Shown here: piece after piece, positions 20,689-29,279 of the stretch | Position numbering within the stretch: the first letter of the stretch is position 1 | Layout of the letters: every line of letters begins with the position of its first letter | From: Cyanobium sp. M30B3 | Lineage (GTDB): Bacteria > Cyanobacteriota > Cyanobacteriia > PCC-6307 > Cyanobiaceae | NCBI GenBank assembly: GCA_018399015.1 | Contig: CP073761.1 | Location: forward strand, 2,046,001 to 2,110,000 | DNA: 64,000 nt | Direction of reading: 5' to 3' | Translations under genes and position numbers: made by a program | Notes under the pieces: model-generated | Database searches by the model: none | Told to the model about the DNA's origin: nothing | The model's input: the letters and a program-made list of their open reading frames with translations, nothing else

Positions 20689-21000
20689 GCTGGAGCGACC
20701 TATAACCAACTCACCAGCTCACCAGCCCACCAAAACCCATCTTGTTCTCACCTTAGTAAACCTTCCTGTCAATAATAAAGAGTTTTGCGATCCTTCCGCG
20801 AGGGTCGTCACTCGCCAGCGCTGTCCGCCAGCCGTCTGTCCCCTCCCCCAACGGAGTCGCCAAGATCACCCTCCAGGCGATGTACTGGAACGTGGAAAAC
20901 CTGTCTTGATGATCCACAAACCTCCATAACTCTGAGGTCCCGACCCACCTCGGCCAGGGGGATGATCTGGATCTCCTTGCGGCCGCGCTTGATCTCGAAC
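20689..21000. other. Intergenic stretch with A/T-rich centre
   Basis: Between the exported protein and the PP2C gene. An A/T-rich patch near 20735-20785 could hold the promoter of the exported-protein gene. The right part contains a cyAbrB-like fragment described separately. Confidence 0.4.
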
Positions 21001-21005
21001 TCATC
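20940..21005 (-). pseudogene. Fragment of a cyAbrB-type gene
   Basis: The minus strand reads DEFEIKRGRKEIQIIPLAEV, matching DEFEIKLGRKQIQLLPLG of the intact cyAbrB at 8185-8565. Only this C-terminal strand region is left, overlapping the 3' end of the PP2C gene in another frame. It suggests a past recombination joining a cyAbrB gene end to the PP2C gene. Confidence 0.55.
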
Positions 21006-22410
21006 CAGAACGATCGCAACGATCAAGCCCAGGAGCGCACCCCCCCCTGGGAGCAGGGGCGGGAACGGCTGGGGGAGCAGCGGGTCGGGCCTGGGTGCGC
21101 CATTGCAGCGCAAGCGCCTGGTCGAGGGCGGGGCAGCTGCCTGGCACCGGGAATGGCTGCTCCCTGCCGGATGGCGGCATGGCGGCCTGCGGCGTCTCGG
21201 TGACTGGCGGGGGAGTGAGCGGGGGCAGGCTCCAGGCGATCAACGCCCCCAGGGGGTCCTGAGCGGCGAAGGCCAGCAGCTGCTGGCGATCGCTGCTCCC
21301 AGTGCGGAGCTGGCTGAACTGCTCACGGCGCTGGGTGAGAGTTCCGGCAATCAGGCCAGGGGTTCGGCACAGTCGCTCCGCCTGCCGCTGGATAGCGGGC
21401 CTCGGGTCAACCGGCTTGGGTGGGGTCTGGGCAAGGGGGGACCCTCCCCAGCCCTGCAACCTTGCCAACCAGGCAACAGCGCCCATGGCCAGCGCAACCG
21501 GCACGAGCAGCAGCAGGGCAAGGGCCACGCCCGGGGGCCGGCTGATCGCTGGCAGGGTCACGGCGCGCCTGGGCCCAGGGATCTGCCCAGCTGATGGCGA
21601 CCAGCGGCCCACGGCGATGGAGAGGTCATCCCCACTGCCAGCGGCGCTGATCTCAGCGAGGCCCTCCGCCAGTTGGTGGCGGTCCTGGATGCCGACCACC
21701 TGGCTGCAGAGCTCCAGGAAGTCCGCGTCGGTGGCGCAGGACTTGCGCACCCCATCGGTGCTGATCAGCAGCGACAACGGGGGACTGAAGGCGGGGATGG
21801 CCTGCAGCCGGGCCCGCTCAGCCCATCGCGCCCGCGCCTCGGTGAGGCAGAGGCTGGCCGTGGCCTCGCCTGCCCCCTGCAGATCGCCTTCCTCACTGAG
21901 AAGCACGGGGCCGGTGCCGCCAACCCGCACCAGATCCCAGTCCCCGAGACCGGTGCATCCCCACCAGGTGGGTGCCAGCACCAGGAGTCCCAGCGTGCTG
22001 CCGTAGCGCGAGGAACAGAACGGTTCACCGCCAGCGGCACCGCCGGGATCCCGCTGCCAGTGCCGCTCAATCGCCTGCAGCCAGCGCGTCTGAATCGCCT
22101 CCGGCAAGCCCTCAGCCAGCAACTGCTGCCAGGCCCGGTGGTCGTCGAGGGGGGTGGTTTGCAGAGCCGCCCGCACGGCCTCGGCGGCCTGCTCGCAGGC
22201 CAGGCGGCTGCCGCTGTCGCTGCAGCGGTAGCGCTCGCCGCCATGGCCATCGGCCACCGCCAGCAGCTGCAGGCAGCCGCCCGATGGGGCCCGCAGCTGG
22301 CGCACCAGGGAGAAGTCCTGACACACCACTCCCCTGCGGCGGTGGGCCGCGCCGATCACGGTGCAGTGCCAGGCCGGCCTCCAGCCGCCATGGGCAGCGG
22401 AGCTCACCAC
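21001..22410 (-). CDS. PP2C-family Ser/Thr phosphatase with C-terminal membrane anchor
   Basis: About 469 residues. The N-terminal ~280 residues form a PP2C domain: VVCQDFS, LLAVADGHGGERY, LLISTDGV and GDDLSIAVGRW supply the metal-binding Asp residues. One membrane helix follows (ALALLLLVPVALAMGAVAWL), then a Pro-rich tail of ~150 residues. GTG start overlaps the VWA gene's end by 7 bases. It would reverse the neighbouring kinase's action. The extreme C-terminus (RGGCAPGLDRCDRSG) comes from sequence that overlaps a cyAbrB remnant, so the original end may have been replaced. Confidence 0.85.
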   Translation of the reverse strand: MVSSAAHGGWRPAWHCTVIGAAHRRRGVVCQDFSLVRQLRAPSGGCLQLLAVADGHGGERYRCSDSGSRLACEQAAEAVRAALQTTPLDDHRAWQQLLAEGLPEAIQTRWLQAIERHWQRDPGGAAGGEPFCSSRYGSTLGLLVLAPTWWGCTGLGDWDLVRVGGTGPVLLSEEGDLQGAGEATASLCLTEARARWAERARLQAIPAFSPPLSLLISTDGVRKSCATDADFLELCSQVVGIQDRHQLAEGLAEISAAGSGDDLSIAVGRWSPSAGQIPGPRRAVTLPAISRPPGVALALLLLVPVALAMGAVAWLARLQGWGGSPLAQTPPKPVDPRPAIQRQAERLCRTPGLIAGTLTQRREQFSQLRTGSSDRQQLLAFAAQDPLGALIAWSLPPLTPPPVTETPQAAMPPSGREQPFPVPGSCPALDQALALQWRTQARPAAPPAVPAPAPRGGCAPGLDRCDRSG

Positions 22411-28002: not shown

Positions 28003-28031
28003 CGCCCACCGCCAGGCCAAGCTGGGAGCAG

Positions 28032-29279
28032 ATGGGGAAGCAGCTGGTGGATGGGAGGGATCGGCCGCAGTGGCGTGAGCTCGGCCAACGCCTGGCGCGC
28101 ACCCTGAGCCAATCGGGCGGTTCGATCGGCACACCTGCGCGCTTGCAGGGGCTGGTGGCTGATCTGGCCGCCGACCGGCAGGAGCTGCTCCTGCCCCTGA
28201 AGGATCTGGTGAGCCGGCCGGCCTTTCAGGCCCTGATCCCAAAGGCCGGCAGCGGCAGCGGCGCGGTGCAGCGGGATGGGCTGATCCAGGCGATGGAGGC
28301 CACCTTCTCCCGCCAGGTGATCCAGGCGTTGCGTGAGCTGCTGGATGGCTTCCTCGATCTGCCGCCGGGATCGGGCGCGCAGGCCGTTGATCAACCCGAC
28401 GTGCCCGTCCCCCAGCCTGCGGCCCCTCCCCCAGCGCCTTCTCCTCCCCGGCCCAACCTGCAGCCGGCCCCGGCCGCGACACCGTTGCGCCGAGCAGAAG
28501 CCGCCCCCCTGGTCGGGGCCGCAGAGCCCAGGACGCCTGTGCTGCGGCTGCTCCTACTCAGCCTGGCCACGGCGGTGGCCGTGGTGGCGGGTGCGGCTGC
28601 GGTGGTGGTGCTGCGCACCAGTGACCTCTGCGCCCTGGTGGGCCTGTGCCCGAGCTCCAGCCCCTCCAACCGTGCTGTTGAGGCCCTGGCGGCAGCGGAG
28701 CAGGCTGCCCAGGATCTGAACCAGGCCGGCACGCTCCGCGCCTACGAGCGGGCGGTGGAGGAGCTGGAGCAGCAGTTGCTCACGCTCAGCGCCGCCACGC
28801 TCACGCCGGAGCAGGAGCAGCGACGGCAGCGGCTGGATCAGACGGCACGGGATGCCCGTGGGGTGCTGGCAGAAGAACGCAACGACGCGCGGCGCCTGGA
28901 GAAAGCCAGCAAAGCCCTGGCTGGCGCACGGCAGAGAGGCGCAGATGAGCGGGCCGGTCAGCTGGCCATCGCCAGGGAAGAACTGGATGCCATCGCACCC
29001 CGGAGCTTCTCGGCCGCGCCAGCCAGAACGCTGCGCCGCCAGCTGGAGCAACTCGAGGCTGAGGCCCCGCCCAGCGAACCATCTGAGCCGGAAGCCGCCC
29101 CGGATCCGGTTCCGGGCGAGGCGCCCGCTGCCGAGCAGGAACCGCCCGCGGAACAGCCAGCCCCCCCTCCACCGCCCCTGCCCGCTCTGCCGCGAGAGCG
29201 CCCCACGCCAGCGCCGATTCCGCCGCCGCCGCCGCCGCCGCCGCCGCCGCCCGCCGCACCAGGGGCTGACGGGCCCTAG
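28032..29279 (+). CDS. Membrane protein with coiled coil and proline-rich tail
   Basis: A 415-residue protein: an N-terminal helical domain (DRQELLLPLKDLVSRPAFQA), a Pro-rich linker, one membrane helix around residue 175-195 (LLLLSLATAVAVVAGAAAVV), a long Ala/Glu/Arg coiled coil in the periplasmic half, and a tail ending in a run of eleven prolines. No known domain. It follows the FHA-PBP by 29 bases and is likely co-transcribed, perhaps as a scaffold or partner for the PBP. Confidence 0.72.
   Translation: MGKQLVDGRDRPQWRELGQRLARTLSQSGGSIGTPARLQGLVADLAADRQELLLPLKDLVSRPAFQALIPKAGSGSGAVQRDGLIQAMEATFSRQVIQALRELLDGFLDLPPGSGAQAVDQPDVPVPQPAAPPPAPSPPRPNLQPAPAATPLRRAEAAPLVGAAEPRTPVLRLLLLSLATAVAVVAGAAAVVVLRTSDLCALVGLCPSSSPSNRAVEALAAAEQAAQDLNQAGTLRAYERAVEELEQQLLTLSAATLTPEQEQRRQRLDQTARDARGVLAEERNDARRLEKASKALAGARQRGADERAGQLAIAREELDAIAPRSFSAAPARTLRRQLEQLEAEAPPSEPSEPEAAPDPVPGEAPAAEQEPPAEQPAPPPPPLPALPRERPTPAPIPPPPPPPPPPPAAPGADGP

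Follow-up and report, generated by a model that had tools for sequence, protein, structure and literature searches.

The TerY-P triad brings together, in tight linkage, a von Willebrand factor A (VWA) protein with a MIDAS motif, a PP2C phosphatase and a Ser/Thr kinase with a C-terminal zinc ribbon, and Gao et al. reportedly presented it as a defence system in 2020. The triad is attributed to Anantharaman et al. (2012), as cited in PMC11090510, and such cores are hypothesised to be metal-sensing switches or are listed as antiphage systems (PMC11090510, PMC7699616). Sets of a zinc-ribbon kinase, a PP2C and a VWA protein are also contained in GAP1-N2 conflict systems (PMC7159879). A parallel in the way of working is offered by mycobacteria, in which the kinase PknB and the PP2C phosphatase PstP, together with FhaA and FhaB, steer peptidoglycan synthesis through FHA proteins. 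We analysed a 64,000-nucleotide stretch of Cyanobium sp. M30B3 (contig CP073761.1, positions 2,046,001 to 2,110,000; hereafter the window), from a single-contig genome of 3.18 Mb, with a G+C content of 69% in the window. It carries a cassette in which a core of this kind stands beside an FHA-bearing class A penicillin-binding protein (PBP). Judged from its sequence, the cassette is a TerY-P-like switch with a putative wall-synthase output of its own, a variant of the known triads. Its features and the adjoining gene are as follows.

21001..22410, minus strand: PP2C Ser/Thr phosphatase, GTG start, single membrane segment at the C-terminus (PF13672, E 1.8e-21)
22404..23201, minus strand: TerY-like VWA protein; MIDAS intact, LPPTxxD tail at the C-terminus (PF00092, E 1e-7)
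23236..24569, minus strand, ATG at 24569: Hanks-type kinase with zinc ribbon (CxxC...CxxC) and C-terminal all-beta domain (PF00069, E 1.4e-13)
24566..25315, minus strand: FHA-TM, an FHA domain with two membrane segments (PF00498, E 3e-12; orthologues in syntenic loci)
25312..25587, minus strand: small membrane protein (SMP) of 91 aa, motif RDPWEPFRxW...IPGW, the conserved first gene of the operon
25588..25659, no strand: divergent intergenic gap of 72 bp, from the SMP start codon to the PBP start codon
25660..28002, plus strand, ATG at 25660: FHA-PBP, with cytoplasmic FHA (PF00498), membrane segment, GT51 (PF00912, E 6e-40) and transpeptidase (PF00905, E 8e-23)
28032..29279, plus strand: coiled-coil membrane protein with an N-terminal helical domain at residues ~12-110 (iterated HMM)
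29390-30253: gene for a class D (OXA-like) beta-lactamase, next after the coiled-coil gene (NF012161 above cut-off)

The minus-strand genes form an operon in the order SMP, FHA-TM, kinase, VWA, PP2C, from which the PBP gene diverges on the plus strand. SMP overlaps FHA-TM, and FHA-TM the kinase gene, by 4 bp each; VWA and PP2C overlap by 7 bp. Pfam matches and open reading frame (ORF) coordinates bear out the order, strands and domains proposed in an earlier reading made without database searches (the sequence-only reading). That reading had also spoken of a 72-bp promoter gap: the spacing is exact, and the promoter found no support in a scan limited to sigma-70-type sites, which detected none in the gap. 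SMP has no match in Pfam, NCBIfam or PHROG, and a PHROGs search of the cassette returned a generic kinase match only.

The sequence-only reading had called the core TerY-P-like. The name is apt at the level of the three homologous components with their zinc ribbon; gene order and partners differ. In PADLOC the VWA protein weakly matches TerY (E 1.4e-4); no TerY-P kinase or phosphatase match was obtained: the kinase hit different kinase models, and none of the PP2C models was matched. The cassette runs kinase-VWA-PP2C, whereas the order is VWA-PP2C-kinase on a Pseudanabaena plasmid and in Streptomyces; it has fixed FHA-TM, SMP and FHA-PBP partners and an LPPT tail on its VWA protein, and no ter or restriction genes. 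A classical tellurite operon was considered and rejected: TerD (PF02342) is absent from the whole genome, in a search made for TerD alone. Pfam likewise revealed none of the CnuH/CnuE helicase-nuclease genes of CoCoNuT types II and III-A among the immediate neighbours of the cassette. With the GAP1-N2 systems (PMC7159879) it shares the three components, a kinase whose C-terminal domain is rich in beta structure, and membrane association, but the cyanobacterial cassette is without genes for DO-GTPase, GAP1 or FNIII (DO-GTPase and GAP1 were absent from the window's cassette genes by Pfam). From the mycobacterial PknB system it differs in that its kinase has no membrane or PASTA region, its FHA domain is fused to the synthase and a VWA protein is present. 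No paper tying a cyanobacterial FHA-PBP to a kinase was found in the literature searched, most subscription journals lying outside its scope.

Evidence for the link comes from the distribution of the cassette. Among 300 genomes of the family, each at least 85% complete, a VWA orthologue was found in 61 and the cassette PBP likewise in 61; 60 have the two together. The sequence-only reading had staked its link between triad and FHA-PBP on their being neighbours in related genomes, and so they are: the VWA and PBP genes lie divergently on one contig, 2.5-4.2 kb apart, in 58 of the 60, the other two being cut by contig ends. The single genome with PBP alone (G492) has a contig edge falling inside the operon (L075), and the single genome with VWA alone is Prochlorococcus sp. 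MIT 0701 (G029). With the exception of MIT 0701, the order PBP / SMP, FHA-TM, kinase, VWA, PP2C is invariant in the complete loci read out, which span 6-7 genera, and an independent scan of species with the kinase alignment recovered the same arrangement throughout the 57 loci from picocyanobacteria, except for two from Prochlorococcus. Since all genomes come from one family and are related, these counts are not independent and a p-value would mislead; the informative points are the fixed order, the six to seven genera and the single exception. An arrangement that recurs in 58 genomes of one family is not due to chance.

Close VWA relatives were confined to this family among a 244-genome sample of the phylum. 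The members that carry the cassette are small cyanobacteria of fresh and brackish water, with the names Synechococcus, Cyanobium, Vulcanococcus, Aphanothece and Prochlorococcus, and presence is patchy, with a VWA orthologue in three of 11 genomes of the window's own genus. A picocyanobacterial cassette was also seen on a contig of a public metagenome-assembled genome titled Bifidobacterium breve (L107), a record that is mislabelled or contaminated.

The motifs expected of the core and of the PBP are conserved. The zinc-ribbon CxxC...CxxC is present in 36 of 36 kinase orthologues and the catalytic motifs in nearly all; an AlphaFold2 model of one orthologue has a kinase fold with Foldseek matches to PknA/PknB. 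The MIDAS DxSxS of the VWA protein is found in 37 of 37 aligned copies, and the DGHG and GDD motifs of PP2C in all 36 orthologues. In the PBP, the phosphothreonine-binding FHA residues GR, SRxH and NG (36/36) accompany the GT51 and transpeptidase domains of a class A PBP, with SxN and KTG in 36/36 copies and STFK in 32/36, the window copy included. Only two clear Hanks kinases occur in the whole genome, one of them in the cassette, and three FHA proteins, two of them in the cassette and the third a paralogue of the FHA-PBP.

That paralogue (L145 1720-3834) has the same FHA-TM-GT51-transpeptidase architecture and canonical FHA residues, is about 42% identical to the cassette PBP, and lies next to a GTPase gene in each of the two genomes looked at (L145, L147). 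As it is also present in a genome of the same genus that has no triad, an FHA domain on a PBP predates the triad or is independent of it, and what is peculiar to the cassette is a second, dedicated FHA-PBP.

The tail of the VWA protein provides a candidate docking site. Its consensus is IPLPDLPPTxxDPxDDxGPLVW, in which the threonine is invariant, mostly as LPPTxxD, and an aspartate stands at +3 in 51 of 55 copies. Rad53 FHA1 binds pTEAD (PMC5549992), and the pattern suggests, as a hypothesis, that the tail threonine could be bound by an FHA domain. LPPT is missing from seven VWA proteins of other contexts; because some of these retain a tail that is rich in proline and has VW at its end, another role may fall to part of the tail.

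We lean, by a modest measure, towards a dedicated Ser/Thr phospho-switch of TerY-P-like type for a dedicated wall synthase. The kinase, VWA protein and PP2C would be located at the membrane, together with SMP and FHA-TM; upon some signal the kinase would phosphorylate a partner on a threonine, the likeliest targets being the threonine of the LPPTxxD tail and one in a membrane protein of the cassette. The PBP would dock on the phosphothreonine through its cytoplasmic FHA domain, and this docking would localise or gate its glycosyltransferase and transpeptidase activities; PP2C would reset the switch. Helical-domain membrane proteins, here the coiled-coil protein, would probably scaffold the complex. 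Phosphorylation, docking, the sign of the regulation and the input signal are all inferred. Control of wall synthesis is our best guess, because the PBP is the only known enzyme of the cassette with an envelope function.

Several observations weigh against this view, in addition to the relatedness of the genomes counted. In other settings, triads work for defence systems that have no PBP. The occurrence of the paralogue without a triad means that an FHA domain on a PBP does not need this kinase. The +3 aspartate is missing from two of the 37 aligned VWA proteins that are accompanied by a PBP (L069, L070). The FHA domain of FHA-TM, a protein that weakly matches the FhaB/FipA model, is partly degenerate and may thus be structural; for the same reason the proposal of the sequence-only reading, that FHA domains read the marks of the kinase, would fit the PBP better than FHA-TM. 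Finally, the window kinase is frameshifted, and the strain may therefore have an impaired switch. The frame is broken in a run of C near 23438-23441, one base shorter than in relatives: the first frame stops at 23343, and the final ~65 codons of the conserved beta domain at the C-terminus fall in a different frame, which ends at 23236. As the kinase genes of the inspected relatives read through this site in a single unbroken frame, the break may be a recent mutation specific to the window or a sequencing error. The cassettes of Synechococcus sp. WH 5701 and Vulcanococcus limneticus LL likewise have an intact kinase frame. That the beta domain might itself be an FHA was rejected (hhalign probability 0.4%).

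A natural variant of the cassette is found in Prochlorococcus. The MIT 0701 triad is without PBP, SMP and FHA-TM and lies near a helical-domain protein and trypsin-TPR proteins, with an FHA-FHA-ABC transporter about 5 kb away (L018/L119). Such a transporter was found in only two of 200 genomes, MIT 0701 and G317. The latter has a normal cassette too and carries its FHA-ABC gene elsewhere (L151 8780-12401), with a trypsin-like gene before it and a helical-domain gene 47 bp downstream. An FHA membrane protein stands near every cyanobacterial triad readable with enough flank. This suggests effector swapping, in which the FHA-PBP is replaced by an FHA-ABC transporter, proximity in one genome being weak evidence when taken alone. 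The architecture is that of the FHA-ABC transporter Rv1747, which is under the control of PknF and Rv2623 and whose docking of a partner depends on phosphothreonine, its FHA I domain reading the mark on Rv2623 (PMC5549992); Rv1747 differs in being actinobacterial and without a TerY-P core. The VWA protein may tentatively be seen as a phospho-adaptor, whose LPPTxxD threonine, phosphorylated by the partner kinase, would recruit whichever FHA membrane effector is encoded in the genome. In most switch-bearing picocyanobacteria this would be a peptidoglycan synthase, in Prochlorococcus an ABC exporter. We regard this proposal as possible, on the doubtful side.

A seventh component emerged from the coiled-coil protein, which had appeared non-conserved by tblastn. 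Iterated hidden Markov models (HMMs) overturned this result: its ~100 N-terminal residues define a helical domain that recurs beside nearly every cassette, in 51 flanking ORFs. In the window, L055, L072 and L018 it is joined to a coiled coil. A second kind, tail-to-tail with the PBP, joins it to a rhomboid-like domain (PF01694 above cut-off); in these proteins (L022 10186-11253, L060 10926-12029 and others) GASG is mostly kept and the histidine of the sixth membrane segment is apparently missing, so that they are probably inactive as proteases, that is, pseudoproteases. A third kind, beside PP2C, combines it with a C-terminal domain that looks NTF2-like and is without a Pfam match. AlphaFold2 models the helical domain as a helical bundle (pLDDT 80). 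It could be assigned neither to a known fold nor to an effector-associated domain (EAD): the best PDB match has E 0.97, and there was no match in Pfam or to any described EAD or Death-like family. The likeness to the EAD principle (PMC7159879, PMC8195603) lies in one small domain placed ahead of varied membrane modules.

Helical domains were also seen at more distant triads. On a Methylomonas plasmid (L152 6581-12331), a triad in kinase-VWA-PP2C order is followed by three tandem genes with a common N-terminal helical domain and differing C-termini; in Bryobacterales (L142 3406-6185), a PrsW intramembrane protease gene and a membrane protein with an N-terminal helical domain precede the triad. 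Kinship of the cyanobacterial domain to those beside the Methylomonas and acidobacterial triads was not significant (hhalign, 12%). The helical-domain family, the effector swap, the candidate docking threonine and the kinase frameshift had all escaped the sequence-only reading.

Kinship to TerY-P and GAP1-N2 sets, together with patchy presence even within a genus, makes an envelope-directed conflict or antiphage system the main rival. Its core would sense invasion; the effectors altering or killing the envelope would be the FHA-PBP, proteins with the helical domain (some of them rhomboid- or NTF2-like) and, in Prochlorococcus only, the ABC transporter along with the trypsin-TPR proteins. TerY-P triads do occur in CoCoNuT restriction systems (PMC11090510), a TerY-P system acts on T7-like phages (PMC7699616), a Streptomyces relative (L143) bears GAP1 and DO-GTPase2, and the repeated helical domain recalls the EAD principle. 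The effector is nevertheless constant rather than variable, the same biosynthetic PBP being present in 60 of 61 genomes; the cassette has no recognisable nuclease, NADase or pore-forming domain, and PADLOC, as described above, gives a weak TerY match and none to TerY-P kinase or phosphatase models. We consider this explanation unlikely, if still a serious one.

Less probable again is a signalling island for envelope stress in general or for metals, with the PBP as just one among several targets and with metal sensed by the zinc ribbon and MIDAS, as has been proposed for TerY-P. Both of these are conserved, and the G317 cassette with its separate FHA-ABC/helical-domain pair indicates that one kinase could feed several outputs, but the genome is without TerD, and the PBP alone is divergent from the operon and strictly linked to it.

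That the genes merely travel together, as a genomic island inherited as a block and without functional coupling, appears very improbable. The gene trees correlate (0.4-0.8), the distribution is patchy, and in G384 and G366 the flanking metallo-hydrolase gene and the cassette lie on different contigs, as might be expected of an island; yet co-occurrence is strict in both directions, the divergent order is conserved and reading frames overlap, and the FHA-PBP is replaced by another FHA membrane protein, not by a random gene. A tRNA-Ser gene (18335-18421) was tried as an attachment site and rejected, other cassettes being mostly without tRNAs; it adjoins a HAMP-SpoIIE phosphatase gene (17066-18307), a PP2C-type signalling gene near the cassette and patchy in the genus. 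Least credible of all is a beta-lactam tolerance locus, in which the extra PBP and the class D beta-lactamase would protect the wall and the kinase sense damage, because the OXA gene is absent from the other cassettes read out and so is local to the window genome. Beyond it, at 30334-32236, lie a metallo-beta-lactamase/rhodanese fusion gene and, after that, a second rhodanese gene.

In the phospho-switch that we favour, a TerY-P-like core would be paired with one fixed and chemically understood output, peptidoglycan synthesis, for which the FHA domain offers a natural readout. The order of the cassette is fixed, cultured strains carry it, and the natural replacement of FHA-PBP by FHA-ABC constitutes a built-in control. 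If the VWA protein is indeed a phospho-adaptor, it would gain a concrete role, and TerY-P cores would be general modules into which effectors are plugged.

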